Of a stretch of DNA of 64,000 bases, positions 1-63,724 are shown one piece after another (the stretch's first letter is position 1; each line of letters begins with the position of its first letter). The DNA comes from Mytilus galloprovincialis (taxonomy: Eukaryota > Mollusca > Bivalvia > Mytilida > Mytilidae): positions 26,838,847 through 26,902,846 of the forward strand of contig NC_134851.1 of the NCBI RefSeq assembly GCF_965363235.1. Reading direction: 5' to 3'. The notes beneath the pieces are model-generated. The model searched no databases. It was not told the DNA's origin and was given only the letters and a program-made list of their open reading frames with translations. Made by a program: the position numbers and the translations under genes.

Positions 1-495
1 GTGTCACTTTATGCTATACAAAGTATTGATCAATCAATCAAATCATGATTCAAGTGATCAAATCATGATAAGTGATCAATCAATCAAGTTTTGATATCAA
101 ACAAGTAATGAATCAAGTGCAGATATCGAAAAAAACGTCCCCTTACCATTTTACAAGCTGCCTATCAGTCGATTAATCAATCAATCAAACGATTAATCAA
201 TCAATGATTGATCAATCATGATCACAAACCATCAATCAACCAATCCACATATCTTTTACGTTGAGTTTATGAAAGAAAATACCTTTAATTCTCTGTTGAA
301 CAATCGACTTTCGCGTATTATTATGTCACCCCTTTGATAAAGGGGGGATATATTGTTATTCTACGAATTTTTTCTTCCACACTTTTTGTCCAGCCGATTT
401 CTCGGAGATGCCTTGACATATATTTATAAAACTGCACCATAATGACAATCCCCATGTGCAAAGTTGCAATAAGCATGGAATGGTTCAAGATGGCC

Positions 496-515
496 GCCGT
501 TTCCATGGAAACGGC
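496..515. promoter_or_regulatory. 20-bp perfect palindrome with X-box-like core (first unit; repeated in every unit)
   Basis: GCCGTTTCCATGGAAACGGC reads the same on both strands. Its centre, GTTTCCATGGAAAC at 499-512, resembles the X-box bound by RFX transcription factors (two GTTNCC half-sites head to head). It is preceded by caagatggccgcc, which resembles a YY1-type site. The palindrome is present in all eleven units at the same offset. Binding is inference only. The motif could also simply be a structural feature of the repeat. Confidence 0.55.
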
Positions 516-624
516 AAAAATGTAAAAAACCGAAAAATGGTCCAAATTTAATGAAACTTTCAGAACTAATAACTCATCGTTAGAAGGCGTGACATCCATC
601 TTGAGAACTTTCAAAATGGCTACC

Positions 625-638
625 GTTGTCATGGAAAC
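625..638. promoter_or_regulatory. Second X-box-like motif in satellite unit
   Basis: GTTGTCATGGAAAC, a one-arm-imperfect form of the palindrome at 496-515, is embedded in aaaatggctacc. It occurs at the same offset in every unit. It is evidence that the unit contains diverged subrepeats of one ancestral module. Confidence 0.4.
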
Positions 639-783
639 AGTCCAAACGTGAAAAAAACGAAAATAAATCCTTAATTAATTCATAGAAAATAAACCGCTAC
701 AGATACGGCCAAAAAAACCGAAGTAGAAAACAGTAGAATAAACTGTAGAATGCATTGCCGTTGGAATTTTTAAGATAGCTGCT

Positions 784-800
784 GTTACCATAGAGATAAC
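784..800. promoter_or_regulatory. Third, most diverged X-box-like motif in satellite unit
   Basis: GTTACCATAGAGATAAC follows taagatagctgct, the diverged equivalent of the aagatggccgcc block. The half-site GTTACC is intact and the spacing is longer. It is the weakest of the four motifs per unit. Confidence 0.3.
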
Positions 801-929
801 ACTAAAAGTGCACATGGGACCCATATCGAAAAAAACGTCAAAGTAACATTTTCGTACAAATTTTAAGCTCATACCCGGTTAAATGCTATTGTATTGTCAT
901 CTGTCTTTGAAATTTTCAAAATGGCCGCC

Positions 930-943
930 GTTGTCATGGAAAC
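930..943. promoter_or_regulatory. Fourth X-box-like motif in satellite unit
   Basis: GTTGTCATGGAAAC directly follows aaaatggccgcc and lies just before the long A-run. It is identical to the second motif and occurs once per unit at the same offset. Confidence 0.4.
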
Positions 944-1401
944 AGATAAAAAAAAACAAAAAAAAAACTCGAAAATTTGAGACAAAATTCTGTGATTAAG
1001 ACTATGTGCAAAACATCTTCTAGAATATGCTAGAAGAAAACCAATATATAATTTAACGTGCTTCTTTCTATTCTATACAAAAATCGTGCTCTGAAGAGAA
1101 AATCGCCACTGAGAGAGAGAGAAACATGAAGAGTACACATAATTGACATTTCTGCACTTGCATTAAGGTACACATCCGTTAATCGAACACCTGCAAAAAT
1201 ATACACATTAGCTGAAATCAATCGATAAGCGTGTAATTAAATTGTACAAGATAAAATACATGTATCGTGTGATACGCGAGACAGTGAATAATAAAATGAA
1301 CAGTTAGTATGCCGCTCCGTCAATATATACACATGTTGTCTGTCCAAGGTCCCCTCTAAAAAGAATAGTAATGTACTAACTCCACGATAATATACTTTAG
1401 T

Positions 1402-1476
1402 ATCACGTGACACCACCTTTCTTCCTCAAGCGTGTGTCTAATTTAAGATTTTAAAGAGTTCCCCAACTATAAATAG
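1402..1476 (+). promoter_or_regulatory. E-box plus TATA-like block in satellite unit
   Basis: CACGTG lies at 1404-1409, and CTATAAATAG, a strong TATA-box match, at 1467-1476. A purine-rich stretch and the G-run follow. The block repeats in every unit, including the truncated last one (TATAAATAG near 19359). This arrangement could drive plus-strand transcription of the satellite, but no transcript is visible from sequence and the match may be chance. Confidence 0.3.
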
Positions 1477-1790
1477 ACATCACTCTTAGTCTACGAGAAG
1501 AGAAAAAGGGGGGGGGGGGGGTCAAAGGCATGTATACTAGACGTGCCATGTGACTTTGATACACTCAAACTGGTTGCTGCTACTGTGACAATGTCCAGAA
1601 CGGGGTGACATCCTCCGCTATTGCTTGCAATGGCAAATCTAGTGTTAGAATAACTCATTCGCAATTCATTTTTTCTGATGAGAAAACAGGAAATAGAGTA
1701 TTTTTCTCAATTTTACGTGTAAAATTGTTCACAGACATTTGTCACTGAACAGCACAAAACGTATAGACAAGGAATAAACCAATGCAAAAT

Positions 1791-3578
1791 GTGTCACTTT
1801 ATGCTATACAAAGTATTGATCAATCAATCAAATCATGATTCAAGTGATCAAATCATGATAAGTGATCAATCAATCAAGTTTTGATATCAAACAAGTAATG
1901 AATCAAGTGCAGATATCGAAAAAAACGTCCCCTTACCATTTTACAAACTGCCTATCAGTCGATTAATCAATCAATCAAACGATTAATCAATCAATGATTG
2001 ATCAATCATGATCACAAACCATCAATCAACCAATCCACATATCTTTTACGTTGAGTTTATGAAAGAAAATACCTTTAATTCTCTGTTGAACAATCGACTT
2101 TCGCGTATTATTATGTCACCCCTTTGATAAAGGGGGGATATATTGTTATTCTACGAATTTTTTCTTCCACACTTTTTGTCCAGCCGATTTCTCGGAGATG
2201 CCTTGACATATATTTATAAAACTGCACCATAATGACAATCCCCATGTGCAAAGTTGCAGTAAGCATGGAATGGTTCAAGATGGCCGCCGTTTCCATGGAA
2301 ACGGCAAAAATGTAAAAAACCGAAAAATGGTCCAAATTTAATGAAACTTTCAGAACTAATAACTCATCGTTAGAAGGCGTGACATCCATCTTGAGAACTT
2401 TCAAAATGGCTACCGTTGTCATGGAAACAGTCCAAACGTGAAAAAAACGAAAATAAATCCTTAATTAATTCATAGAAAATAAACCGCTACAGATACGGCC
2501 AAAAAAACCGAAGTAGAAAACAGTAGAATAAACTGTAGAATGCATTGCCGTTGGAATTTTTAAGATAGCTGCTGTTACCATAGAGATAACACTAAAAGTG
2601 CACATGGGACCCATATCGAAAAAAACGTCAAAGTAACATTTTCGTACAAATTTTAAGCTCATACCCGGTTAAATGCTATTGTATTGTCATCTGTCTTTGA
2701 AATTTTCAAAATGGCCGCCGTTGTCATGGAAACAGATAAAAAAAAAAAAAAAAAAAAAACTCGAAAATTTGAGACAAAATTCTGTGATTAAGACTATGTG
2801 CAAAACATCTTCTAGAATATGCTAGAAGAAAACCAATATATAATTTAACGTGCTTCTTTCTATTCTATACAAAAATCGTGCTCTGAAGAGAAAATCGCCA
2901 CTGAGAGAGAGAGAAACATGAAGAGTACACATAATTGACATTTCTGCACTTGCATTAAGGTACACATCCGTTAATCGAACACCTGCAAAAATATACACAT
3001 TAGCTGAAATCAATCGATAAGCGTGTAATTAAATTGTACAAGATAAAATACATGTATCGTGTGATACGCGAGACAGTGAATAATAAAATGAACAGTTAGT
3101 ATGCCGCTCCGTCAATATATACACATGTTGTCTGTCCAAGGTCCCCTCTAAAAAGAATAGTAATGTACTAACTCTACGATAATATACTTTAGTATCACGT
3201 GACACCACCTTTCTTCCTCAAGCGTGTGTCTAATTTAAGATTTTAAAGAGTTCCCCAACTATAAATAGACATCACTCTTAGTCTACGAGAAGAGAAAAAG
3301 GGGGGGGGGTCAAAGGCATGTATACTAGACGTGCCATGTGACTTTGATACACTCAAACTGGTTGCTGCTACTGTGACAATGTCCAGAACGGGGTGACATC
3401 CTCCGCTATTGCTTGCAATGGCAAATCTAGTGTTAGAATAACTCATTCGCAATTCATTTTTTCTGATGAGAAAACAGGAAATAGAGTATTTTTCTCAATT
3501 TTACGTGTAAAATTGTTCACAGACATTTGTCACTGAACAGCACAAAACGTATAGACAAGGAATAAACCAATGCAAAAT
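1791..3578. repeat. One representative satellite unit (second copy)
   Basis: A complete 1788-bp unit. In order it has a tetranucleotide-rich segment with repeated gatcaatcaatca; a segment containing atcgaaaaaaacgtc, which recurs about 690 bp later; four subrepeats of roughly 120-165 bp built around an ATGGCCGCCGTT..CATGGAAAC core; a long A-run; a GA microsatellite; a CACGTG box; a TATAAATAG box; a G-run; and a unique tail ending in caatgcaaaat. The recurring core suggests the unit grew from a shorter repeat before it was amplified as a 1.79-kb block. Confidence 0.9.
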
Positions 3579-6500
3579 GTGTCACTTTATGCTATACAAA
3601 GTATTGATCAATCAATCAAATCATGATTCAAGTGATCAAATCATGATAAGTGATCAATCAATCAAGTTTTGATATCAAACAAGTAATGAATCAAGTGCAG
3701 ATATCGAAAAAAACGTCCCCTTACCATTTTACAAACTGCCTATCAGTCGATTAATCAATCAATCAAACGATTAATCAATCAATGATTGATCAATCATGAT
3801 CACAAACCATCAATCAACCAATCCACATATCTTTTACGTTGAGTTTATGAAAGAAAATACCTTTAATTCTCTGTTGAACAATCGACTTTCGCGTATTATT
3901 ATGTCACCCCTTTGATAAAGGGGGGATATATTGTTATTCTACGAATTTTTTCTTCCACACTTTTTGTCCAGCCGATTTCTCGGAGATGCCTTGACATATA
4001 TTTATAAAACTGCACAATAATGACAATCCCCATGTGCAAAGTTGCAGTAAGCATGGAATGGTTCAAGATGGCCGCCGTTTCCATGGAAACGGCAAAAATG
4101 TAAAAAACCGAAAAATGGTCCAAATTTAATGAAACTTTCAGAACTAATAACTCATCGTTAGAAGGCGTGACATCCATCTTGAGAACTTTCAAAATGGCTA
4201 CCGTTGTCATGGAAACAGTCCAAACGTGAAAAAAACGAAAATAAATCCTTAATTAATTCATAGAAAATAAACCGCTACAGATACGGCCAAAAAAACCGTA
4301 AGTAGAAAACAGTAGAATAAACTGTAGAATGCATTGCCGTTGGAATTTTTAAGATAGCTGCTGTTACCATAGAGATAACACTAAAAGTGCACATGGGACC
4401 CATATCGAAAAAAACGTCAAAGTAACATTTTCGTACAAATTTTAAGCTCATACCCGGTTAAATGCTATTGTATTGTCATCTGTCTTTGAAATTTTCAAAA
4501 TGGCCGCCGTTGTCATGGAAACAGATAAAAAAAAAAAAAAAAAAAAACTCGAAAATTTGAGACAAAATTCTGTGATTAAGACTATGTGCAAAACATCTTC
4601 TAGAATATGCTAGAAGAAAACCAATATATAATTTAACGTGCTTCTTTCTATTCTATACAAAAATCGTGCTCTGAAGAGAAAATCGCCACTGAGAGAGAGA
4701 GAAACATGAAGAGTACACATAATTGACATTTCTGCACTTGCATTAAGGTACACATCCGTTAATCGAACACCTGCAAAAATATACACATTAGCTGAAATCA
4801 ATCGATAAGCGTGTAATTAAATTGTACAAGATAAAATACATGTATCGTGTGATACGCGAGACAGTGAATAATAAAATGAACAGTTAGTATGCCGCTCCGT
4901 CAATATATACACATGTTGTCTGTCCAAGGTCCCCTCTAAAAAGAATAGTAATGTACTAACTCTACGATAATATACTTTAGTATCACGTGACACCACCTTT
5001 CTTCCTCAAGCGTGTGTCTAATTTAAGATTTTAAAGAGTTCCCCAACTATAAATAGACATCACTCTTAGTCTACGAGAAGAGAAAAAGGGGGGGGTCAAA
5101 GGCATGTATACTAGACGTGCCATGTGACTTTGATACACTCAAACTGGTTGCTGCTACTGTGACAATGTCCAGAACGGGGTGACATCCTCCGCTATTGCTT
5201 GCAATGGCAAATCTAGTGTTAGAATAACTCATTCGCAATTCATTTTTTCTGATGAGAAAACAGGAAATAGAGTATTTTTTCTCAATTTTACGTGTAAAAT
5301 TGTTCACAGACATTTGTCACTGAACAGCACAAAACGTATAGACAAGGAATAAACCAATGCAAAATGTGTCACTTTATGCTATACAAAGTATTGATCAATC
5401 AATCAAATCATGATTCAAGTGATCAAATCATGATAAGTGATCAATCAATCAAGTTTTGATATCAAACAAGTAATGAATCAAGTGCAGATATCGAAAAAAA
5501 CGTCCCCTTACCATTTTACAAACTGCCTATCAGTCGATTAATCAATCAATCAAACGATTAATCAATCAATGATTGATCAATCATGATCACAAACCATCAA
5601 TCAACCAATCCACATATCTTTTACGTTGAGTTTATGAAAGAAAATACCTTTAATTCTCTGTTGAACAATCGACTTTCGCGTATTATTATGTCACCCCTTT
5701 GATAAAGGGGGGATATATTGTTATTCTACGAATTTTTTCTTCCACACTTTTTGTCCAGCCAATTTCTCGGAGATGCCTTGACATATATTTATAAAACTGC
5801 ACCATAATGACAATCCCCATGTGCAAAGTTGCAGTAAGCATGGAATGGTTCAAGATGGCCGCCGTTTCCATGGAAACGGCAAAAATGTAAAAAACCGAAA
5901 AATGGTCCAAATTTAATGAAACTTTCAGAACTAATAACTCATCGTTAGAAGGCGTGACATCCATCTTGAGAACTTTCAAAATGGCTACCGTTGTCATGGA
6001 AACAGTCCAAACGTGAAAAAAACGAAAATAAATCCTTAATTAATTCATAGAAAATAAACCGCTACAGATACGGCCAAAAAAACCGTAAGTAGAAAACAGT
6101 AGAATAAACTGTAGAATGCATTGCCGTTGGAATTTTTAAGATAGCTGCTGTTACCATAGAGATAACACTAAAAGTGCACATGGGACCCATATCGAAAAAA
6201 ACGTCAAAGTAACATTTTCGTACAAATTTTAAGCTCATACCCGGTTAAATGCTATTGTATTGTCATCTGTCTTTGAAATTTTCAAAATGGCCGCCGTTGT
6301 CATGGAAACAGATAAAAAAAAAAAAAAAAAAAAAACTCGAAAATTTGAGACAAAATTCTGTGATTAAGACTATGTGCAAAACATCTTCTAGAATATGCTA
6401 GAAGAAAACCAATATATAATTTAACGTGCTTCTTTCTATTCTATACAAAAATCGTGCTCTGAAGAGAAAATCGCCACTGAGAGAGAGAGAAACATGAAGA

Positions 6501-9500
6501 GTACACATAATTGACATTTCTGCACTTGCATTAAGGTACACATCCGTTAATCGAACACCTGCAAAAATATACACATTAGCTGAAATCAATCGATAAGCGT
6601 GTAATTAAATTGTACAAGATAAAATACATGTATCGTGTGATACGCGAGACAGTGAATAATAAAATGAACAGTTAGTATGCCGCTCCGTCAATATATACAC
6701 ATGTTGTCTGTCCAAGGTCCCCTCTAAAAAGAATAGTAATGTACTAACTCTACGATAATATACTTTAGTATCACGTGACACCACCTTTCTTCCTCAAGCG
6801 TGTGTCTAATTTAAGATTTTAAAGAGTTCCCCAACTATAAATAGACATCACTCTTAGTCTACGAGAAGAGAAAAAGGGGGGGGTCAAAGGCATGTATACT
6901 AGACGTGCCATGTGACTTTGATACACTCAAACTGGTTGCTGCTACTGTGACAATGTCCAGAACGGGGTGACATCCTCCGCTATTGCTTGCAATGGCAAAT
7001 CTAGTGTTAGAATAACTCATTCGCAATTCATTTTTTCTGATGAGAAAACAGGAAATAGAGTATTTTTTCTCAATTTTACGTGTAAAATTGTTCACAGACA
7101 TTTGTCACTGAACAGCACAAAACGTATAGACAAGGAATAAACCAATGCAAAATGTGTCACTTTATGCTATACAAAGTATTGATCAATCAATCAAATCATG
7201 ATTCAAGTGATCAAATCATGATAAGTGATCAATCAATCAAGTTTTGATATCAAACAAGTAATGAATCAAGTGCAGATATCGAAAAAAACGTCCCCTTACC
7301 ATTTTACAAACTGCCTATCAGTCGATTAATCAATCAATCAAACGATTAATCAATCAATGATTGATCAATCATGATCACAAACCATCAATCAACCAATCCA
7401 CATATCTTTTACGTTGAGTTTATGAAAGAAAATACCTTTAATTCTCTGTTGAACAATCGACTTTCGCGTATTATTATGTCACCCCTTTGATAAAGGGGGG
7501 ATATATTGTTATTCTACGAATTTTTTCTTCCACACTTTTTGTCCAGCCAATTTCTCGGAGATGCCTTGACATATATTTATAAAACTGCACCATAATGACA
7601 ATCCCCATGTGCAAAGTTGCAGTAAGCATGGAATGGTTCAAGATGGCCGCCGTTTCCATGGAAACGGCAAAAATGTAAAAAACCGAAAAATGGTCCAAAT
7701 TTAATGAAACTTTCAGAACTAATAACTCATCGTTAGAAGGCGTGACATCCATCTTGAGAACTTTCAAAATGGCTACCGTTGTCATGGAAACAGTCCAAAC
7801 GTGAAAAAAACGAAAATAAATCCTTAATTAATTCATAGAAAATAAACCGCTACAGATACGGCCAAAAAAACCGTAAGTAGAAAACAGTAGAATAAACTGT
7901 AGAATGCATTGCCGTTGGAATTTTTAAGATAGCTGCTGTTACCATAGAGATAACACTAAAAGTGCACATGGGACCCATATCGAAAAAAACGTCAAAGTAA
8001 CATTTTCGTACAAATTTTAAGCTCATACCCGGTTAAATGCTATTGTATTGTCATCTGTCTTTGAAATTTTCAAAATGGCCGCCGTTGTCATGGAAACAGA
8101 TAAAAAAAAAAAAAAAAAAAAAACTCGAAAATTTGAGACAAAATTCTGTGATTAAGACTATGTGCAAAACATCTTCTAGAATATGCTAGAAGAAAACCAA
8201 TATATAATTTAACGTGCTTCTTTCTATTCTATACAAAAATCGTGCTCTGAAGAGAAAATCGCCACTGAGAGAGAGAGAAACATGAAGAGTACACATAATT
8301 GACATTTCTGCACTTGCATTAAGGTACACATCCGTTAATCGAACACCTGCAAAAATATACACATTAGCTGAAATCAATCGATAAGCGTGTAATTAAATTG
8401 TACAAGATAAAATACATGTATCGTGTGATACGCGAGACAGTGAATAATAAAATGAACAGTTAGTATGCCGCTCCGTCAATATATACACATGTTGTCTGTC
8501 CAAGGTCCCCTCTAAAAAGAATAGTAATGTACTAACTCTACGATAATATACTTTAGTATCACGTGACACCACCTTTCATCCTCAAGCGTGTGTCTAATTT
8601 AAGATTTTAAAGAGTTCCCCAACTATAAATAGACATCACTCTTAGTCTACGAGAAGAGAAAAAGGGGGGGGTCAAAGGCATGTATACTAGACGTGCCATG
8701 TGACTTTGATACACTCAAACTGGTTGCTGCTACTGTGACAATGTCCAGAACGGGGTGACATCCTCCGCTATTGCTTGCAATGGCAAATCTAGTGTTAGAA
8801 TAACTCATTCGCAATTCATTTTTTCTGATGAGAAAACAGGAAATAGAGTATTTTTTCTCAATTTTACGTGTAAAATTGTTCACAGACATTTGTCACTGAA
8901 CAGCACAAAACGTATAGACAAGGAATAAACCAATGCAAAATGTGTCACTTTATGCTATACAAAGTATTGATCAATCAATCAAATCATGATTCAAGTGATC
9001 AAATCATGATAAGTGATCAATCAATCAAGTTTTGATATCAAACAAGTAATGAATCAAGTGCAGATATCGAAAAAAACGTCCCCTTACCATTTTACAAACT
9101 GCCTATCAGTCGATTAATCAATCAATCAAACGATTAATCAATCAATGATTGATCAATCATGATCACAAACCATCAATCAACCAATCCACATATCTTTTAC
9201 GTTGAGTTTATGAAAGAAAATACCTTTAATTCTCTGTTGAACAATCGACTTTCGCGTATTATTATGTCACCCCTTTGATAAAGGGGGGATATATTGTTAT
9301 TCTACGAATTTTTTCTTCCACACTTTTTGTCCAGCCAATTTCTCGGAGATGCCTTGACATATATTTATAAAACTGCACCATAATGACAATCCCCATGTGC
9401 AAAGTTGCAGTAAGCATGGAATGGTTCAAGATGGCCGCCGTTTCCATGGAAACGGCAAAAATGTAAAAAACCGAAAAATGGTCCAAATTTAATGAAACTT

Positions 9501-12500
9501 TCAGAACTAATAACTCATCGTTAGAAGGCGTGACATCCATCTTGAGAACTTTCAAAATGGCTACCGTTGTCATGGAAACAGTCCAAACGTGAAAAAAACG
9601 AAAATAAATCCTTAATTAATTCATAGAAAATAAACCGCTACAGATACGGCCAAAAAAACCGTAAGTAGAAAACAGTAGAATAAACTGTAGAATGCATTGC
9701 CGTTGGAATTTTTAAGATAGCTGCTGTTACCATAGAGATAACACTAAAAGTGCACATGGGACCCATATCGAAAAAAACGTCAAAGTAACATTTTCGTACA
9801 AATTTTAAGCTCATACCCGGTTAAATGCTATTGTATTGTCATCTGTCTTTGAAATTTTCAAAATGGCCGCCGTTGTCATGGAAACAGATAAAAAAAAAAA
9901 AAAAAAAAAAACTCGAAAATTTGAGACAAAATTCTGTGATTAAGACTATGTGCAAAACATCTTCTAGAATATGCTAGAAGAAAACCAATATATAATTTAA
10001 CGTGCTTCTTTCTATTCTATACAAAAATCGTGCTCTGAAGAGAAAATCGCCACTGAGAGAGAGAGAAACATGAAGAGTACACATAATTGACATTTCTGCA
10101 CTTGCATTAAGGTACACATCCGTTAATCGAACACCTGCAAAAATATACACATTAGCTGAAATCAATCGATAAGCGTGTAATTAAATTGTACAAGATAAAA
10201 TACATGTATCGTGTGATACGCGAGACAGTGAATAATAAAATGAACAGTTAGTATGCCGCTCCGTCAATATATACACATGTTGTCTGTCCAAGGTCCCCTC
10301 TAAAAAGAATAGTAATGTACTAACTCTACGATAATATACTTTAGTATCACGTGACACCACCTTTCTTCCTCAAGCGTGTGTCTAATTTAAGATTTTAAAG
10401 AGTTCCCCAACTATAAATAGACATCACTCTTAGTCTACGAGAAGAGAAAAAGGGGGGGGGGGTCAAAGGCATGTATACTAGACGTGCCATGTGACTTTGA
10501 TACACTCAAACTGGTTGCTGCTACTGTGACAATGTCCAGAACGGGGTGACATCCTCCGCTATTGCTTGCAATGGCAAATCTAGTGTTAGAATAACTCATT
10601 CGCAATTCATTTTTTCTGATGAGAAAACAGGAAATAGAGTATTTTTCTCAATTTTACGTGTAAAATTGTTCACAGACATTTGTCACTGAACAGCACAAAA
10701 CGTATAGACAAGGAATAAACCAATGCAAAATGTGTCACTTTATGCTATACAAAGTATTGATCAATCAATCAAATCATGATTCAAGTGATCAAATCATGAT
10801 AAGTGATCAATCAATCAAGTTTTGATATCAAACAAGTAATGAATCAAGTGCAGATATCGAAAAAAACGTCCCCTTACCATTTTACAAACTGCCTATCAGT
10901 CGATTAATCAATCAATCAAACGATTAATCAATCAATGATTGATCAATCATGATCACAAACCATCAATCAACCAATCCACATATCTTTTACGTTGAGTTTA
11001 TGAAAGAAAATACCTTTAATTCTCTGTTGAACAATCGACTTTCGCGTATTATTATGTCACCCCTTTGATAAAGGGGGGATATATTGTTATTCTACGAATT
11101 TTTTCTTCCACACTTTTTGTCCAGCCAATTTCTCGGAGATGCCTTGACATATATTTATAAAACTGCACCATAATGACAATCCCCATGTGCAAAGTTGCAG
11201 TAAGCATGGAATGGTTCAAGATGGCCGCCGTTTCCATGGAAACGGCAAAAATGTAAAAAACCGAAAAATGGTCCAAATTTAATGAAACTTTCAGAACTAA
11301 TAACTCATCGTTAGAAGGCGTGACATCCATCTTGAGAACTTTCAAAATGGCTACCGTTGTCATGGAAACAGTCCAAACGTGAAAATAAATCCTTAATTAA
11401 TTCATAGAAAATAAACCGCTACAGATACGGCCAAAAAAACCGTAAGTAGAAAACAGTAGAATAAACTGTAGAATGCATTGCCGTTGGAATTTTTAAGATA
11501 GCTGCTGTTACCATAGAGATAACACTAAAAGTGCACATGGGACCCATATCGAAAAAAACGTCAAAGTAACATTTTCGTACAAATTTTAAGCTCATACCCG
11601 GTTAAATGCTATTGTATTGTCATCTGTCTTTGAAATTTTCAAAATGGCCGCCGTTGTCATGGAAACAGATAAAAAAAAAAAAAAAAAAAAAACTCGAAAA
11701 TTTGAGACAAAATTCTGTGATTAAGACTATGTGCAAAACATCTTCTAGAATATGCTAGAAGAAAACCAATATATAATTTAACGTGCTTCTTTCTATTCTA
11801 TACAAAAATCGTGCTCTGAAGAGAAAATCGCCACTGAGAGAGAGAGAAACATGAAGAGTACACATAATTGACATTTCTGCACTTGCATTAAGGTACACAT
11901 CCGTTAATCGAACACCTGCAAAAATATACACATTAGCTGAAATCAATCGATAAGCGTGTAATTAAATTGTACAAGATAAAATACATGTATCGTGTGATAC
12001 GCGAGACAGTGAATAATAAAATGAACAGTTAGTATGCCGCTCCGTCAATATATACACATGTTGTCTGTCCAAGGTCCCCTCTAAAAAGAATAGTAATGTA
12101 CTAACTCTACGATAATATACTTTAGTATCACGTGACACCACCTTTCTTCCTCAAGCGTGTGTCTAATTTAAGATTTTACAGAGTTCCCCAACTATAAATA
12201 GACATCACTCTTAGTCTACGAGAAGAGAAAAAGGGGGGGGGGGTCAAAGGCATGTATACTAGACGTGCCATGTGACTTTGATACACTCAAACTGGTTGCT
12301 GCTACTGTGACAATGTCCAGAACGGGGTGACATCCTCCGCTATTGCTTGCAATGGCAAATCTAGTGTTAGAATAACTCATTCGCAATTCATTTTTTCTGA
12401 TGAGAAAACAGGAAATAGAGTATTTTTCTCAATTTTACGTGTAAAATTGTTCACAGACATTTGTCACTGAACAGCACAAAACGTATAGACAAGGAATAAA

Positions 12501-15500
12501 CCAATGCAAAATGTGTCACTTTATGCTATACAAAGTATTGATCAATCAATCAAATCATGATTCAAGTGATCAAATCATGATAAGTGATCAATCAATCAAG
12601 TTTTGATATCAAACAAGTAATGAATCAAGTGCAGATATCGAAAAAAACGTCCCCTTACCATTTTACAAACTGCCTATCAGTCGATTAATCAATCAATCAA
12701 ACGATTAATCAATCAATGATTGATCAATCATGATCACAAACCATCAATCAACCAATCCACATATCTTTTACGTTGAGTTTATGAAAGAAAATACCTTTAA
12801 TTCTCTGTTGAACAATCGACTTTCGCGTATTATTATGTCACCCCTTTGATAAAGGGGGGATATATTGTTATTCTACGAATTTTTTCTTCCACACTTTTTG
12901 TCCAGCCAATTTCTCGGAGATGCCTTGACATATATTTATAAAACTGCACCATAATGACAATCCCCATGTGCAAAGTTGCAGTAAGCATGGAATGGTTCAA
13001 GATGGCCGCCGTTTCCATGGAAACGGCAAAAATGTAAAAAACCGAAAAATGGTCCAAATTTAATGAAACTTTCAGAACTAATAACTCATCGTTAGAAGGC
13101 GTGACATCCATCTTGAGAACTTTCAAAATGGCTACCGTTGTCATGGAAACAGTCCAAACGTGAAAAAAACGAAAATAAATCCTTAATTAATTCATAGAAA
13201 ATAAACCGCTACAGATACGGCCAAAAAAACCGTAAGTAGAAAACAGTAGAATAAACTGTAGAATGCATTGCCGTTGGAATTTTTAAGATAGCTGCTGTTA
13301 CCATAGAGATAACACTAAAAGTGCACATGGGACCCATATCGAAAAAAAACGTCAAAGTAACATTTTCGTACAAATTTTAAGCTCATACCCGGTTAAATGC
13401 TATTGTATTGTCATCTGTCTTTGAAATTTTCAAAATGGCCGCCGTTGTCATGGAAACAGATAAAAAAAAAAAAAAAAAAAAAACTCGAAAATTTGAGACA
13501 AAATTCTGTGATTAAGACTATGTGCAAAACATCTTCTAGAATATGCTAGAAGAAAACCAATATATAATTTAACGTGCTTCTTTCTATTCTATACAAAAAT
13601 CGTGCTCTGAAGAGAAAATCGCCACTGAGAGAGAGAGAAACATGAAGAGTACACATAATTGACATTTCTGCACTTGCATTAAGGTACACATCCGTTAATC
13701 GAACACCTGCAAAAATATACACATTAGCTGAAATCAATCGATAAGCGTGTAATTAAATTGTACAAGATAAAATACATGTATCGTGTGATACGCGAGACAG
13801 TGAATAATAAAATGAACAGTTAGTATGCCGCTCCGTCAATATATACACATGTTGTCTGTCCAAGGTCCCCTCTAAAAAGAATAGTAATGTACTAACTCTA
13901 CGATAATATACTTTAGTATCACGTGACACCACCTTTCTTCCTCAAGCGTGTGTCTAATTTAAGATTTTAAAGAGTTCCCCAACTATAAATAGACATCACT
14001 CTTAGTCTACGAGAAGAGAAAAAGGGGGGGGGGGGTCAAAGGCATGTATACTAGACGTGCCATGTGACTTTGATACACTCAAACTGGTTGCTGCTACTGT
14101 GACAATGTCCAGAACGGGGTGACATCCTCCGCTATTGCTTGCAATGGCAAATCTAGTGTTAGAATAACTCATTCGCAATTCATTTTTTCTGATGAGAAAA
14201 CAGGAAATAGAGTATTTTTCTCAATTTTACGTGTAAAATTGTTCACAGACATTTGTCACTGAACAGCACAAAACGTATAGACAAGGAATAAACCAATGCA
14301 AAATGTGTCACTTTATGCTATACAAAGTATTGATCAATCAATCAAATCATGATTCAAGTGATCAAATCATGATAAGTGATCAATCAATCAAGTTTTGATA
14401 TCAAACAAGTAATGAATCAAGTGCAGATATCGAAAAAAACGTCCCCTTACCATTTTACAAACTGCCTATCAGTCGATTAATCAATCAATCAAACGATTAA
14501 TCAATCAATGATTGATCAATCATGATCACAAACCATCAATCAACCAATCCACATATCTTTTACGTTGAGTTTATGAAAGAAAATACCTTTAATTCTCTGT
14601 TGAACAATCGACTTTCGCGTATTATTATGTCACCCCTTTGATAAAGGGGGGATATATTGTTATTCTACGAATTTTTTCTTCCACACTTTTTGTCCAGCCA
14701 ATTTCTCGGAGATGCCTTGACATATATTTATAAAACTGCACCATAATGACAATCCCCATGTGCAAAGTTGCAGTAAGCATGGAATGGTTCAAGATGGCCG
14801 CCGTTTCCATGGAAACGGCAAAAATGTAAAAAACCGAAAAATGGTCCAAATTTAATGAAACTTTCAGAACTAATAACTCATCGTTAGAAGGCGTGACATC
14901 CATCTTGAGAACTTTCAAAATGGCTACCGTTGTCATGGAAACAGTCCAAACGTGAAAAAAACGAAAATAAATCCTTAATTAATTCATAGAAAATAAACCG
15001 CTACAGATACGGCCAAAAAAACCGTAAGTAGAAAACAGTAGAATAAACTGTAGAATGCATTGCCGTTGGAATTTTTAAGATAGCTGCTGTTACCATAGAG
15101 ATAACACTAAAAGTGCACATGGGACCCATATCGAAAAAAACGTCAAAGTAACATTTTCGTACAAATTTTAAGCTCATACCCGGTTAAATGCTATTGTATT
15201 GTCATCTGTCTTTGAAATTTTCAAAATGGCCGCCGTTGTCATGGAAACAGATAAAAAAAAAAAAAAAAAAAAACTCGAAAATTTGAGACAAAATTCTGTG
15301 ATTAAGACTATGTGCAAAACATCTTCTAGAATATGCTAGAAGAAAACCAATATATAATTTAACGTGCTTCTTTCTATTCTATACAAAAAATCGTGCTCTG
15401 AAGAGAAAATCGCCACTGAGAGAGAGAGAAACATGAAGAGTACACATAATTGACATTTCTGCACTTGCATTAAGGTACACATCCGTTAATCGAACACCTG

Positions 15501-18500
15501 CAAAAATATACACATTATCTGAAATCAATCGATAAGCGTGTAATTAAATTGTACAAGATAAAATACATGTATCGTGTGATACGCGAGACAGTGAATAATA
15601 AAATGAACAGTTAGTATGCCGCTCCGTCAATATATACACATGTTGTCTGTCCAAGGTCCCCTCTAAAAAGAATAGTAATGTACTAACTCTACGATAATAT
15701 ACTTTAGTATCACGTGACACCACCTTTCTTCCTCAAGCGTGTGTCTAATTTAAGATTTTAAAGAGTTCCCCAACTATAAATAGACATCACTCTTAGTCTA
15801 CGAGAAGAGAAAAAGGGGGGGGGGGGTCAAAGGCATGTATACTAGACGTGCTATGTGACTTTGATACACTCAAACTGGTTGCTGCTACTGTGACAATGTC
15901 CAGAACGGGGTGACATCCTCCGCTATTGCTTGCAATGGCAAATCTAGTGTTAGAATAACTCATTCGCAATTCATTTTTTCTGATGAGAAAACAGGAAATA
16001 GAGTATTTTTCTCAATTTTACGTGTAAAATTGTTCACAGACATTTGTCACTGAACAGCACAAAACGTATAGACAAGGAATAAACCAATGCAAAATGTGTC
16101 ACTTTATGCTATACAAAGTATTGATCAATCAATCAAATCATGATTCAAGTGATCAAATCATGATAAGTGATCAATCAATCAAGTTTTGATATCAAACAAG
16201 TAATGAATCAAGTGCAGATATCGAAAAAAACGTCCCCTTACCATTTTACAAACTGCCTATCAGTCGATTAATCAATCAATCAAACGATTAATCAATCAAT
16301 GATTGATCAATCATGATCACAAACCATCAATCAACCAATCCACATATCTTTTACGTTGAGTTGATGAAAGAAAATACCTTTAATTCTCTGTTGAACAATC
16401 GACTTTCGCGTATTATTATGTCACCCCTTTGATAAAGGGGGGATATATTGTTATTCTACGAATTTTTTCTTCCACACTTTTTGTCCAGCCAATTTCTCGG
16501 AGATGCCTTGACATATATTTATAAAACTGCACCATAATGACAATCCCCATGTGCAAAGTTGCAGTAAGCATGGAATGGTTCAAGATGGCCGCCGTTTCCA
16601 TGGAAACGGCAAAAATGTAAAAAACCGAAAAATGGTCCAAATTTAATGAAACTTTCAGAACTAATAACTCATCGTTAGAAGGCGTGACATCCATCTTGAG
16701 AACTTTCAAAATGGCTACCGTTGTCATGGAAACAGTCCAAACGTGAAAAAAACGAAAATAAATCCTTAATTAATTCATAGAAAATAAACCGCTACAGATA
16801 CGGCCAAAAAAACCGAAGTAGAAAACAGTAGAATAAACTGTAGAATGCATTGCCGTTGGAATTTTTAAGATAGCTGCTGTTACCATAGAGATAACACTAA
16901 AAGTGCACATGGGACCCATATCGAAAAAAACGTCAAAGTAACATTTTCGTACAAATTTTAAGCTCATACCCGGTTAAATGCTATTGTATTGTCATCTGTC
17001 TTTGAAATTTTCAAAATGGCCGCCGTTGTCATGGAAACAGATAAAAAAAAAAAAAAAAAAAAACTCGAAAATTTGAGACAAAATTCTGTGATTAAGACTA
17101 TGTGCAAAACATCTTCTAGAATATGCTAGAAGAAAACCAATATATAATTTAACGTGCTTCTTTCTATTCTATACAAAAATCGTGCTCTGAAGAGAAAATC
17201 GCCACTGAGAGAGAGAGAAACATGAAGAGTACACATAATTGACATTTCTGCACTTGCATTAAGGTACACATCCGTTAATCGAACACCTGCAAAAATATAC
17301 ACATTAGCTGAAATCAATCGATAAGCGTGTAATTAAATTGTACAAGATAAAATACATGTATCGTGTGATACGCGAGACAGTGAATAATAAAATGAACAGT
17401 TAGTATGCCGCTCCGTCAATATATACACATGTTGTCTGTCCAAGGTCCCCTCTAAAAAGAATAGTAATGTACTAACTCTACGATAATATACTTTAGTATC
17501 ACGTGACACCACCTTTCTTCCTCAAGCGTGTGTCTAATTTAAGATTTTAAAGAGTTCCCCAACTATAAATAGACATCACTCTTAGTCTACGAGAAGAGAA
17601 AAGGGGGGGGGGGGGGGGGTCAAAGGCATGTATACTAGACGTGCCATGTGACTTTGATACACTCAAACTGGTTGCTGCTACTGTGACAATGTCCAGAACG
17701 GGGTGACATCCTCCGCTATTGCTTGCAATGGCAAATCTAGTGTTAGAATAACTCATTCGCAATTCATTTTTTCTGATGAGAAAACAGGAAATAGAGTATT
17801 TTTCTCAATTTTACGTGTAAAATTGTTCACAGACATTTGTCACTGAACAGCACAAAACGTATAGACAAGGAATAAACCAATGCAAAATGTGTCACTTTAT
17901 GCTATACAAAGTATTGATCAATCAATCAAATCATGATTCAAGTGATCAAATCATGATAAGTGATCAATCAATCAAGTTTTGATATCAAACAAGTAATGAA
18001 TCAAGTGCAGATATCGAAAAAAACGTCCCCTTACCATTTTACAAACTGCCTATCAGTCGATTAATCAATCAATCAAACGATTAATCAATCAATGATTGAT
18101 CAATCATGATCACAAACCATCAATCAACCAATCCACATATCTTTTACGTTGAGTTTATGAAAGAAAATACCTTTAATTCTCTGTTGAACAATCGACTTTC
18201 GCGTATTATTATGTCACCCCTTTGATAAAGGGGGGATATATTGTTATTCTACGAATTTTTTCTTCCACACTTTTTGTCCAGCCAATTTCTCGGAGATGCC
18301 TTGACATATATTTATAAAACTGCACCATAATGACAATCCCCATGTGCAAAGTTGCAGTAAGCATGGAATGGTTCAAGATGGCCGCCGTTTCCATGGAAAC
18401 GGCAAAAATGTAAAAAACCGAAAAATGGTCCAAATTTAATGAAACTTTCAGAACTAATAACTCATCGTTAGAAGGCGTGACATCCATCTTGAGAACTTTC

Positions 18501-19427
18501 AAAATGGCTACCGTTGTCATGGAAACAGTCCAAACGTGAAAAAAACGAAAATAAATCCTTAATTAATTCATAGAAAATAAACCGCTACAGATACGGCCAA
18601 AAAAACCGTAAGTAGAAAACAGTAGAATAAACTGTAGAATGCATTGCCGTTGGAATTTTTAAGATAGCTGCTGTTACCATAGAGATAACACTAAAAGTGC
18701 ACATGGGACCCATATCGAAAAAAACGTCAAAGTAACATTTTCGTACAAATTTTAAGCTCATACCCGGTTAAATGCTATTGTATTGTCATCTGTCTTTGAA
18801 ATTTTCAAAATGGCCGCCGTTGTCATGGAAACAGATAAAAAAAAAAAAAAAAAAAAAAACTCGAAAATTTGAGACAAAATTCTGTGATTAAGACTATGTG
18901 CAAAACATCTTCTAGAATATGCTAGAAGAAAACCAATATATAATTTAACGTGCTTCTTTCTATTCTATACAAAAATCGTGCTCTGAAGAGAAAATCGCCA
19001 CTGAGAGAGAGAGAAACATGAAGAGTACACATAATTGACATTTCTGCACTTGCATTAAGGTACACATCCGTTAATCGAACACCTGCAAAAATATACACAT
19101 TAGCTGAAATCAATCGATAAGCGTGTAATTAAATTGTACAAGATAAAATACATGTATCGTGTGATACGCGAGACAGTGAATAATAAAATGAACAGTTAGT
19201 ATGCCGCTCCGTCAATATATACACATGTTGTCTGTCCAAGGTCCCCTCTAAAAAGAATAGTAATGTACTAACTCTACGATAATATACTTTAGTATCACGT
19301 GACACCACCTTTCTTCCTCAAGCGTGTGTCTAATTTAAGATTTTAAAGAGTTCCCCAACTATAAATAGACATCACTCTTAGTCTACGAGAAGAGAAAAAG
19401 GGGGGGGGGGTCAAAGGCATGTATACT

Positions 19428-19660
19428 TGACTATTCATTTGCATCCATTGCTACACATGCATTTATTTCTAAACATATTTTCACATTTGCATACAGATGC
19501 ATAATATTCCTTTTCAGCCTGTCTTGTGTCATGTAACAGGGTCTTTTATACATGTGGCTCACTAACTGCTTTTTGTTCAAATTAATCTTTTTAGACATTT
19601 GATATCTGGTGGAGAGTTGTCTTATTGGCATTGATCATACCCCAACTTTCTAATTTTCAT
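19428..19660 (-). repeat. Interspersed mussel repeat (family M1) abutting the satellite
   Basis: Reverse-complemented, this stretch reads gtatgatcaatgccaataag followed by acaactctccacc, the start of a repeat seen at least six more times in this window (for example 23545, 28125, 45970, 46525 and 60395). The satellite stops at 19427 in the middle of a unit and this sequence follows directly. No open frame here is credible as a gene. Confidence 0.55.
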
Positions 19661-34165: not shown

Positions 34166-34589
34166 CTGCATATTCTTTATATATATTAGGTAAATTATCA
34201 AAAATCAGTGAAAATCATATTACTATCTTAATCACAATAACAACAATTAACTATTTTAACAAAGAAACCGAAATGGCATACAGAAATTCGATTGACACAG
34301 AACATAGGCAAAGAAAGACAACATTAACATAATTGCTAAATGTATCAATACTCAGCCACGTCAAAAATATATTACCAAAAATGGAATAAACATATTCGAA
34401 ATACACAAAGACAAACATTGATGATCCAAATTTCCGAAAGTATTTGCCGAATACAGATAACTTTATCTATTCCTTAAGAAAATCAATATTATTTGGAGAA
34501 ATTCAATATGTTTACCAGTTTAATTACCAGCAGTTGATTATACATGTTTTTCCGATAATTCGTGTCAACACAGAAGTTATAACTAATAA

Positions 34590-35290
34590 TTAACTAGCTA
34601 TTGCTGTGACGCAGTGATTGTAAATAAACTCGTCATAGATACCAGGATTAAAACTTGTTTACGCCAGATGAACGTTTAATCTACATAGGCTTATTAGTGA
34701 AATATATTTCTATTACTGAGGTAGAAAATTCCTCTTATTTCGAAAAATTTAAAGTTTAATTAACAGTTGATTTATGATTATGACCATTTAAGTTTTGATT
34801 CATGTCAACACAGAAGTGTTGATTTAATATTGACATAACATTATTAATAAACAACTTGAATTATATTTTTTTAAATTGTCTGGTTTCTGTTTTTATAGAT
34901 TAATGATATAAATCGTATATGGTGTACTTAAATAATGATTTATGTTCATGTAATATTGTCAGTTTCCTTATGTAATATCATTTCGGATGTTTAACAAAAT
35001 TTCTTGTTTCCCGTTTTCGAGGAGTTATCATAAAAATCGTAAGAATTTTGCACCAAAAACAACAATTTTGTAGTCATTCAGTTTTGTCAATTTCCTTTCA
35101 CAATCCTATTTGTGAGTTTCAAATAAAAACATCATGAATACCAGGACTATAATTGGGTAAACCAGAGGCGTGTTTTGTCTACAAAAGACTCATACGTAAC
35201 ATTCAAATCAACCAGTTTATAACATGTATTAGGCAAAAACGTTCTTACAGGTAAGAAGAGTAGATTAAATCATTATAAATAAGACAAATC
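34590..35290 (-). repeat. Decayed fragments of the hammerhead (retrozyme) repeat family
   Basis: Two fragments carry the family signature in worn form: 34600-34700 (cgtcatagataccaggatta, then tacgccag and tctacata) and 35128-35215 (gaataccaggactataattg, then gtgttttgtctacaaaagactcat). The catalytic core is no longer recognisable in either. The second fragment sits inside the segment shared with the downstream flank of gene 2. Confidence 0.5.
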
Positions 35291-57810: not shown

Positions 57811-58034
57811 TCATAGAAATATTTAAGGGATCAATAGAAACTGTTGATGTAGTTGTAGTATTTGAAATTTCAAAGGCATAACGAAATTGTATATTTTTAT
57901 TTACATAAAACAAATTTCAATTAGAAATAGATCTTATACATCGGCCACAGCAGAAAATCACAGATAATTTTTTTCTGTAAAGTTGAAAGATCATCACAGA
58001 TTAAGAAGACAGCACAATCGTGGTCAATAACTAA

Positions 58035-58061
58035 ATGTGTGTGTGTGTGTGTGTGTGTGTG
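58035..58061. repeat. (TG)n microsatellite
   Basis: About 13 TG dinucleotides (gtgtgtgtgtgtgtgtgtgt) just downstream of the C1q exon. Confidence 0.95.
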
Positions 58062-58171
58062 AAACATCCTCTTATATATGTTTTAGTGGTATTTGGCACA
58101 ACTTTTTGAAATTTTGTGTATTCAATGCTCTACAACAATATACTTGTTTGGCTATTTAACTAATTTGATCT

Positions 58172-58217
58172 GCACGTCACTGATGAGTCGTATGTAGACG
58201 AAACGCGCGACTGGCTT
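58172..58217 (+). ncRNA. Solo hammerhead ribozyme remnant (plus strand)
   Basis: CTGATGA (58180-58186), stem II GTC-loop-GAC (58187-58199) and GAAA (58200-58203) are intact. The cleavage-site triplet reads GAC where active family members have GTC, so self-cleavage is not expected. It is oriented opposite to the array that follows at 58559. Confidence 0.6.
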
Positions 58218-58580
58218 ATCAAATTATTTACTACATTAACAGACACTAATAAATGATGACTAAATGTAAAGTTAAGATATCCTTTTTGTGTCCTTCGATA
58301 ACCGTCAGAAATGCTAATGGAGTACAGTATGCTTCCGTTGACATTGATATGATATCTGTGTTTTGGGAAATCACGAATATGTTCAACTTGTTGTAACCCC
58401 TAAATTGTCTCTTTGCCTTTGGTTTGGACAAAACCATATACAATTTTCATAGGCCTAGTGTTTGACACTTTTTGTTTTTACATGATATATAATTGATGTT
58501 TATTTTCTGTACTATTAGTTTACCATTTTTAGAATGTTTGACTAGTCGAAAGGCAAATAGTACCAGGATTATAATTTTAT

Positions 58581-58626
58581 ACGCCAGACGCGCGTTTTGT
58601 CTACATAAGACTCATCAGTGACGCTC
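58581..58626 (-). ncRNA. Hammerhead ribozyme, array unit 1
   Basis: On the minus strand: stem I GCGUCA/UGGCGU, core CUGAUGA, stem II GUCU-UAUGU-AGAC, stem III ACG/CGU and cleavage after GUC, between 58587 and 58586. The GAAA box reads AAAA here (G12 position changed), which should abolish or strongly reduce activity. Confidence 0.75.
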
Positions 58627-58936
58627 AGATCAAAATAGTTAAAAAGCCAAATAAATACAAAGTTGAAGAGCATTGAGGATCAAAAATTCCTAAAATTTGT
58701 GCCAAATATGGCTAAGGTAATCTACTCCTGGGGTAAGAAAATCCCTAGTTTTTCAAAAAATTCAAAGTTTTGTAAACAGAAAATTTATAAAATGACCATA
58801 TAATTGATATTCATGTTAACACCGAAGTGCTGACTACTGGGCTGGTGATACCCTCGGGGACGAAACGTCCACTAGCAGTGGCATCGACCCAGTGGTGTTA
58901 ATAGTTATCAAAAGTACCAGGATTATATAATTTTAT

Positions 58937-58982
58937 ACGCCAGACGCGCGTTTCGTCTACATAAGACTCATCGGTGACGCTC
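58937..58982 (-). ncRNA. Hammerhead ribozyme, array unit 2
   Basis: All stems and the GAAA box are intact. The first core box reads CCGAUGA instead of CUGAUGA (U4 position), shared with units 3 and 4. Activity likely reduced. Confidence 0.75.
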
Positions 58983-59292
58983 AGATCAAAATAGTTAAAA
59001 AGCCAAATAAATACAAAGTTGAAGAGCATTGAGGATAAAAAATTCCAAAAAGTTGTGCCAAATATGGCTAAGGTTATCTACTCCTGGGGTAAGAAAATCC
59101 TTAGTTTTTCAAAAAATTCAAAGTTTTGTAAACAGAAAATTTATAAAATGACCATATAATTGATATTCATGTTAACACCGAAGTGCTGACTACTGGGCTG
59201 GTGATACCCTCGGGGACGAAACGTCCACCAGCAGTGGCATCGACCCAGTGGTGTAAATAGTTATCAAAAGTACCAGGATTATATAATTTTAT

Positions 59293-59338
59293 ACGCCAGA
59301 CGCGCGTTTCGTCTACATAAGACTCATCGGTGACGCTC
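59293..59338 (-). ncRNA. Hammerhead ribozyme, array unit 3
   Basis: Same sequence as unit 2: intact stems and GAAA, CCGAUGA variant of the first core box, GUC cleavage triplet. Confidence 0.75.
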
Positions 59339-59648
59339 AGATCAAAATAGTTAAAAAGCCAAATAAATACAAAGTTGAAGAGCATTGAGGATAAAAAATT
59401 CCAAAAAGTTGTGCCAAATATGGCTAAGGTTATCTACTCCTGGGGTAAGAAAATCCTTAGTTTTTCAAAAAATTCAAAGTTTTGTAAACAGAAAATTTAT
59501 AAAATGACCATATAATTGATATTCATGTTAACACCGAAGTGCTGACTACTGGGCTGGTGATACCCTCGGGGACGAAACGTCCACCAGCAGTGGCATCGAC
59601 CCAGTGGTGTAAATAGTTATCAAAAGTACCAGGATTATATAATTTTAT

Positions 59649-59694
59649 ACGCCAGACGCGCGTTTCGTCTACATAAGACTCATCGGTGACGCTC
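59649..59694 (-). ncRNA. Hammerhead ribozyme, array unit 4
   Basis: Same as units 2 and 3, including the CCGAUGA variant. Confidence 0.75.
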
Positions 59695-60002
59695 AGATCA
59701 AAATAGTTAAAAAGCCAAATAAATACAAAGTTGAAGAGCATTGAGGATAAAAAATTCCAAAAAGTTGTGCCAAATATGGCTAAGGTTATCTACTCCTGGG
59801 GTAAGAAAATCCTTAGTTTTTCAAAAAATTCAAAGTTTTGTAAACAGAAAATTTATAAAATGACCATATAATTGATATTCATGTCAACACCGAAGTGCTG
59901 ACTACTGGGCTGGTGATACCCTCGGGGACGAAACGTCCACCAGCAGTGGCATCGACCCAGTGGTGTAAATAGTTATCAAAAGTACCAGGATTATAATTTT
60001 AT

Positions 60003-60048
60003 ACGCCAGACGCGCGTTTCGTATACATAAGACTCATCAGTGACGCTC
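60003..60048 (-). ncRNA. Hammerhead ribozyme, array unit 5
   Basis: Both core boxes (CUGAUGA, GAAA) and the GUC cleavage site match consensus. Stem II has one mismatch (GUCU against AUAC). It is the most likely of the five to retain activity. Confidence 0.78.
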
Positions 60049-60394
60049 AGATCAAAATAGTTAAAAAGCCAAATAAATACAAAGTTGAAGAGCATTGAGG
60101 ATCAAAAATTCCTAAAAGTTGTGCCCAATATGGCTAAGATAATCTACTCCTGGGGTAAGAAAATCCTTAGTTTTTCGAAAAATTCAAAGTTTTGTACTAT
60201 TAGTTTACCATTTTTATAATGTTTGACTAGTCGAAAGGCAAATATTTTCCTTAAACCATGTATACAATTGCCTCAAACGTTTCTTTGTCACAAATTATCT
60301 GATTTAGATGTTCTTCAATTTTGTTTGTTGGTTCTTTCAAATGTTTAAATACGAAAGCCACTAAAGAAACCCACGTATGTACATAAGTTAGAAT

Positions 60395-63299: not shown

Positions 63300-63715
63300 A
63301 AAGTATGAGTAGCAGCTTAAAGCTTAGAGCTGTATAAAAAATTGTTAAGGCCAAATAAAGTACGAAGTTGAGGAGCATTAAAGACCAAAAATTCCAAAAA
63401 GTTTTGCCAAACACTAGTACAGCTAAGGTAATATATTTCTGAGGTAGAAAAGCCTTAGTATTTCATATATTCAAAGTTTTGTTAACAGTTGATTTATAAT
63501 TATGAACATATCAATGATATTTCAAGTCAACACAGAAGTGATGACTACAGTGTTGGTGATACCCTCGAGGAATTAAAACTCCACCAGCAGTGGCATCGAC
63601 CCAGTGGTTGTGAATAAACTCATCATAGATACCAGGATTGAAATTTTATATTTACACTAGACGCGCGTTTCGTCTACAAATGACTCATCAGTGACGCTCG
63701 AATAAAAAAATGTTA
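63300..63715 (-). repeat. Solo diverged retrozyme-family unit
   Basis: Follows the 356-bp unit in order (gttaaggccaaataaagtac, gaggagcattaaagaccaaa, gataccctcgaggaattaaa, gcagtggcatcgacccagtg, ataccaggattgaaatttta), with many substitutions, ending in the hammerhead at 63654-63699. Confidence 0.7.
63654..63699 (-). ncRNA. Hammerhead ribozyme with intact core, solo unit
   Basis: CUGAUGA, stem II GUC-AUUUGUA-GAC, GAAA and the GUC cleavage site are all consensus. Stem I is weakened because the strand after the cleavage site reads UAGUGU instead of UGGCGU. It may be weakly active. Confidence 0.7.
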
Positions 63716-63724
63716 AACAGTTTG

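Follow-up and report, generated by a model that had tools for sequence, protein, structure and literature searches.

The window analysed here is a stretch of 64,000 nucleotides from Mytilus galloprovincialis (contig NC_134851.1), and it carries a retrozyme array whose RNA sense is the minus strand. The features of the array and of two diverged copies are as follows, in coordinates of the window; the hammerhead E-values were computed for 2201 searched bases.

58560-60192, minus strand (RNA sense): retrozyme array, 4.6 units of 356 bp (tandem-repeat span 58554-60196; 98% matches at the tandem period).
58581-58624, minus strand: hammerhead of unit 1, RF00163 26.5 bits, E 0.0011; G12A (GAAA to AAAA), a CpG-type change.
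58937-58980, minus strand: hammerhead of unit 2, RF00163 29.8 bits, E 8.9e-5; U4C (CUGAUGA to CCGAUGA).
59293-59336, minus strand: hammerhead of unit 3, RF00163 29.8 bits, E 8.9e-5; U4C.
59649-59692, minus strand: hammerhead of unit 4, RF00163 29.8 bits, E 8.9e-5; U4C.
60003-60046, minus strand: hammerhead of unit 5, RF00163 28.4 bits, E 2.6e-4; core intact, stem II mismatch (AGAC to AUAC).
59526-59609, minus strand: hairpin domain of unit 3, directly 3' of the putative reverse-transcription start.
About 58814-58897, 59170-59253 and 59882-59965, minus strand: the same hairpin domain in units 1, 2 and 4; the truncated unit 5 has none.
59611-59617, minus strand: AACTATT, array-internal copy of the putative reverse-transcription start, the motif where related arrays end.
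60193-60244, strand not applicable: target-site duplication on the 5' side of the RNA sense, 51 of 52 positions identical to the other copy.
58508-58559, strand not applicable: target-site duplication on the 3' side of the RNA sense, partner of the 60193-60244 copy.
58090-58230, plus strand: diverged retrozyme fragment, 85% identity, with its own hammerhead-like relic at 58174-58217 (23.0 bits, E 0.017).
63338-63720, minus strand: diverged retrozyme copy, 79% identity, with a hammerhead at 63654-63697 (25.7 bits, E 0.0034) and a hairpin domain at 63526-63611.

The original prediction placed a type I hammerhead on the minus strand of every unit, and a covariance-model check bore this out with five RF00163 matches; the letters and deviations it named (G12A in unit 1, U4C in units 2-4, a stem II mismatch in unit 5) are exact. 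An Rfam scan of the whole window at the gathering threshold was empty because all five scores (26.5-29.8) lie below the gathering score of 34; although sub-threshold, five regularly spaced matches with E of 8.9e-5 to 1.1e-3 are not due to chance. Elsewhere in the genome, 29 of the 37 other Hammerhead_1 matches listed score above 34 bits (74 of 224653 candidates scored). The assignment to a retrozyme-type hammerhead array is likewise upheld by the tandem structure, the hammerheads and the description of this kind of element from mussel (PMC7229834, main text). The 356-bp unit falls in the retrozyme range of 150-450 bp, and GC content is low (35.8% in 58001-60000). Animal non-LTR retrozymes have been reported from Mytilus with about 5000 hammerheads and abundant circular RNAs (Cervera and de la Pena 2020, PMC7229834, main text). 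As described there for M. galloprovincialis, they resemble the array in having one type I hammerhead per unit, tandem units of 350-390 bp, low GC and, when present, target duplications of more than 4 bp (52 bp in the window); two hammerhead families occur there as here, a likeness that lies in their number. Unlike that type, the window copy has no fully intact hammerhead. Plant LTR retrozymes, as portrayed in passages of the literature, share with the mussel elements a non-autonomous hammerhead design and circular RNA intermediates but differ in their type III hammerhead, LTRs, tRNA primer site and 4-bp target duplications.

The relic hammerheads at 58174-58217 (plus strand) and 63654-63697 (minus strand) were absent from the original prediction. 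Scattered, diverged retrozyme-like pieces (72-76% identity, minus strand) also lie at 34416-35211, and positions 1-19431 hold a tandem repeat of 1.79 kb, ten successive copies of which are 98.8-99.9% identical, with no Rfam match at the gathering threshold.

As to Penelope-like coding capacity, none of the three open reading frames of at least 110 aa in the window overlaps the array, and a Pfam search with these three gave no match. The array is flanked by a direct repeat of 52 bp with one mismatch, which had previously gone unmentioned and which fits a single insertion event. Structure prediction of the tandem units, proposed earlier as a check, was uninformative: one unit has no unusual stability (z -0.68; 24 of 100 shuffles equally good), and none of the five hammerhead stretches takes the three-helix form at minimum energy (stem II does form in 59289-59340), so that folding by itself gives no support.

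Alignment of the units gives five private changes in unit 1, five held jointly by units 2-4 (one of them a 2-nt insertion) and three over 222 nt in unit 5. The earlier claim of one deviation per unit was right as to positions but overstated their independence, since units 2 and 3 are identical and unit 4 is one base away from both. Changes common to several lineages (one in units 1-4, one in units 1-3) suggest exchange between units. The 5, 5 and 3 private changes per lineage are consistent in age with the single mismatch in 52 positions of the duplication. The simplest history suggested by the alignment is that a copy of about 2.6 units would have been inserted once, with the 52-bp duplication, that its three lineages would each have lost a perfect hammerhead by decay, and that the middle, U4C unit would recently have been multiplied locally to three. 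With the private changes that the three lineages have, neutral decay would hit the 45-nt hammerhead in all of them with a probability of 0.12; a non-random pattern of deviations was rejected as an explanation (p about 0.12, for three lineages, not five), and the deviations are explained by ordinary decay with local duplication of units, not by design.

For comparison we assembled 40 arrays in hammerhead sense, namely the window and 39 places matching a window unit. The exact 45-nt hammerhead consensus is found in 105 of 124 hammerheads across the 40 arrays, the window accounting for five of the 19 inexact ones, and in 105 of 119 across the other 39, by a count that misses copies with more than nine differences (L053, with nine full units, yielded seven hammerheads). 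Five arrays, the window included, lack any exact copy. Internal divergence of the window array (0.0157) is the second largest among the 18 arrays with at least two full units, after L053 (0.0208). The window array is probably inactive; it is ordinary as an array and atypical within its family in its 3' end, about 14 nt early, and its 52-bp duplication.

It had been suggested that multimeric circles might arise from this array. That the array is still expressed, with only unit 5 cleaving and multimeric circles released in consequence, seems to us very improbable. Unit 5 does retain CUGAUGA and GAAA, its sole defect being the stem II mismatch, but the catalytic core of units 1-4 is altered by G12A or U4C, and the effect of both changes on the hammerhead core is known from hammerhead mutagenesis. 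Two cleavages are needed for a circle and the intact catalytic core occurs in unit 5 only, which lies at the 5' end in RNA order; a single cut there would presumably yield a linear RNA whose 3' end is an ordinary one, a 3' part that could not be closed. Since only unit 5 has an intact core, the array is expected to release no circle, and the exact hammerheads elsewhere (105 of the 119) make other arrays better circle sources. Cleavage as a dimer had been suggested originally, but a requirement for dimers is not supported: co-transcriptional self-cleavage of a mussel genomic repeat has been reported, at about 0.1 per min, and it is for amphibian hammerhead motifs that the dimer requirement is reported (both PMC7229834, main text).

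A search of the 1.38-Gb genome (331 contigs) with a window unit gave 3806 candidates; the 40 that were scored yielded at least 140 matches, which indicates a dispersed multicopy family; a 21-mer end motif occurs 4064 times and its reversed control not at all. A second family differs in its spacer, in a unit length of 350 bp and in its hammerhead, which reads CUGAAGA and has a palindrome of its own; Rfam matched this hammerhead in one of three sources (L100, 31.2 bits), leaving L106 unmatched with the same hammerhead letters. Among the 18 arrays with at least two full units, seven have a within-array distance of 0.002 or less and ten one of 0.003 or less, against a between-array mean of 0.0176, and units of one array share their differences from the family consensus; alike units with common differences fit repeated copying of one RNA. 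Counting against this, within-array distance reaches at least 0.011 in five of the 18, the window among them.

Unit number also changes after insertion. In another subfamily, at least 16 listed places have both junction positions in common yet hold 2.3 (nine places), 3.3 (five), 4.3 (one) or 5.3 (one) units, and two further listed places match in the 5' junction and differ in the 3' junction. Five of the 16 were inspected: their 3' flanks are identical in sequence, and the whole 5' flank is common to four, L024 agreeing with them just in the few dozen bases closest to the array. That one insertion occurs with different unit numbers points to gain or loss of units at the DNA level. At L024 and L090-L097 the retrozyme array is nested in a repeated element found on several contigs with differing unit numbers. 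On contig C1, the region 433-448 kb (its ends in L098 and L099) holds at least 43 listed family-2 units at 350-bp spacing, and at L100 a family-1 3' end comes no more than about 150 bp after the end of a family-2 array, a case of clustered insertions.

In RNA sense the arrays have a common 3' end, which in 37 of 40 consists of GATAACTA, with up to one mismatch, and another 0-6 bases that match. Of the three others, the window and L085 end at GGTAC followed by TATT, stopping about 14 nt before the usual site or skipping TTTTGATAAC, and L057 ends within the hairpin domain. Measured from the cleavage site, the end site lies 41 nt downstream in the family-1 consensus, 43 nt in window units 2-4 and 33 nt in family 2. 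The 5' ends are spread across the unit, not quite uniformly (KS p 0.02; 40 arrays). The search query began exactly at the end site, so the sample is biased to arrays complete in that phase, and two checks address this bias: places of the 21-mer taken in order of position on contig C1, and family 2. The 21-mer is followed by NNACACC in 1736 of its 4064 occurrences. At the first 100 listed places, all on C1, it continues into a next unit in 22 of 23 inner copies, 3 of 19 copies last in their array and 5 of 58 solitary copies (Fisher p 1.7e-14); the corresponding family-2 counts are 35/41, 3/17 and 9/42 (p 7e-11). Among five family-2 3' sides fetched, four stop at the equivalent place, and the stretch from L103 is too short to reach the end. 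This comparison of inner, last and solitary copies was used because a spacer control for the motif failed, its contrast of 1879 vs 186 being confounded by subfamily polymorphism. The family thus has a fixed 3' end, supported in two families, and this end may mark the start of reverse transcription.

Clustering of 5' ends just after a full turn was considered and dropped: it was seen in 14 of 40 arrays, in a sample that favours arrays slightly over one unit long, but in 5 of 19 arrays of at least two units (p 0.22). The 5' starts of L059, L077, L079, L080 and L081 nearly coincide, about 15-20 nt beyond whole turns, which makes four or five of 40, as L081 borders on the edge of its fetched stretch, where the start may have been cut off.

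Directly beyond the end site lies a domain of about 85 nt conserved in both families. Its two hairpins keep their pairing despite changed letters between the families: hairpin one reads GUCAGCAC-UUCG-GUGUUGAC in one and GCCAGUAC-UUCG-GUACUGGC in the other, and hairpin two GGACGUUUCGUCC vs GGACUAUUAGUCC (letters from the first 100 listed of 8096 and of 8674 places). In a covariation set of 29 sequences, hand-chosen from 52 distinct copies, 96.1% of cells pair, and 26 cells show change on both sides, compared with 7.3 on average after shuffling and with 0-10 in slid versions. Two of the five covariation measures were unremarkable (both-sided pairs were reached in 25 of 500 shuffles and further pair types in 246 of 500), and the signal is mostly one split between the two families. 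Across 30 diverse loci, difference from consensus is 0.074 in the domain, 0.080 in the hammerhead, 0.148 in the spacer and 0.143 in the stretch from hammerhead to 3' end; as the loci were found via the hammerhead model, only the contrast of domain with spacer is free of bias. The domain covaries as RNA, and a role in copying may be proposed for it from its position. A vestigial plus-strand hammerhead within the domain (CUGGUGA...GAAACGUC) was rejected, there being no Rfam match at that place at E up to 10, and family 2 retains the stem but loses GAAA.

Alternatively, the elements might be plain satellite DNA, or a Helitron-like or extrachromosomal DNA circle element, spreading by DNA alone, and such a route would accommodate the changes of unit number at one insertion, the lack of a clear target duplication at most insertions and the fixity of one end. 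We regard it as improbable, because the hammerhead and the hairpin domain change slowly (the hammerhead figure being biased as noted), because the domain covaries as RNA and commonly contains a G-U pair that would be C-A on the opposite strand, because dispersed short copies have a common 3' end and scattered 5' ends, and because circular RNAs are reported from mussel (PMC7229834, main text).

We consider it likely that the window array is an aged, inactive non-LTR retrozyme whose family is copied by the reverse transcriptase of a host retroelement from a circle, with a fixed internal start beside the hairpin domain. It is proposed that an active array elsewhere would be transcribed, that its hammerheads would cut the RNA into monomers of about 350 nt, and that these would be closed into circles. 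The reverse transcriptase would bind the conserved hairpin domain, use a nick in genomic DNA as primer and begin copying at the fixed site just upstream of that domain, after which it would circle the RNA one or more times and fall off. A fixed start followed by a run around the circle until fall-off would yield tandem units with a constant 3' end and a variable 5' end. Units would subsequently mutate, and whole units would be gained or lost at the DNA level. In this scheme the circular template, the role of the hairpin domain and the enzyme are inferred.

Were a linear, hammerhead-cut monomer the template, its end would be at GUC; the end that is observed therefore means that copying crossed the cleavage site; the position of the end fits copying that started internally on a circle or an uncut multimer, or at another RNA 3' end. 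Within a retrozyme cycle, the template might accordingly have been a linear uncut multimer copied by an ordinary LINE enzyme, its 3' end produced by another cut beside the hairpin. DNA alone cannot separate circle from multimer, and the arrays are like LINE products in their variable 5' ends and in their loose joints with the target. We nevertheless find this route rather unlikely, as no poly(A) run directly follows any of the 40 junctions (a TA run does so at L063), a hammerhead-cut monomer would end 33-41 nt earlier, and a Penelope-like element is documented to start internally, close to a stem-loop (PMC11167929, main text).

Target duplications count against the preferred reading, copying from a circle at a fixed start, in that most arrays have no convincing one. 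Long duplications occur in two of 40 arrays, the window (52 bp) and L087 (29 nt). A first test gave no excess (mean score 4.75 for 20 arrays, the window excluded; null 4.2), and a tighter one a mild excess (score of at least 6 in 11 of 39 arrays vs 4.45 expected; at least 4 in 25 vs 22). L087 consists of a truncated unit, 29 nt of target, a full unit and the same 29 nt, both retrozyme pieces having identical changes near the 3' end, and represents either a double insertion into a single site or a switch of template.

The pattern fits, by analogy, target-primed reverse transcription from a fixed internal start, as seen in vitro for a Penelope-like element (PMC11167929, main text). In that element, Poseidon of Anolis, copying begins at an internal site that lies within a stem-loop 3' of the hammerhead, and the first 172 nt of the ORF must be part of the template. 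With its features as given in the same text, Poseidon resembles the retrozyme family in the geometry of a hammerhead shortly upstream of a start beside a stem-loop, in RNA required for binding just downstream (start and binding being putative in the retrozymes), and in its tandem copies; unlike the retrozymes it encodes its own protein, and hammerhead cutting is unneeded for its insertion in vitro. It is tentatively suggested that retrozymes mimic the template of Penelope-like elements, the domain recruiting a Penelope-type reverse transcriptase to the circle and setting the start 33-41 nt past the cut, so that one priming would give many copies; we hold this possible, with more doubt than confidence. 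In search of the mobilising enzyme, the genome was scanned for GIY-YIG domains with a cut-off of E 1e-6; of 1001 candidates, 150 were scored and none matched.

Elements of this kind are already known (PMC7229834, main text); what is new here is the common 3' end site of the arrays together with the adjoining, covarying hairpin domain, neither of which is found in the sections consulted of that main text. A statement of a fixed retrozyme end was likewise not found in the sections consulted of PMC11167929 or in passages of PMC7761336 and PMC8490949. A fixed insertion end with an adjoining conserved RNA domain is a candidate clue to the enzyme that moves retrozymes, and Penelope mimicry, if true, would identify the machinery, so far missing, that mobilises animal retrozymes.
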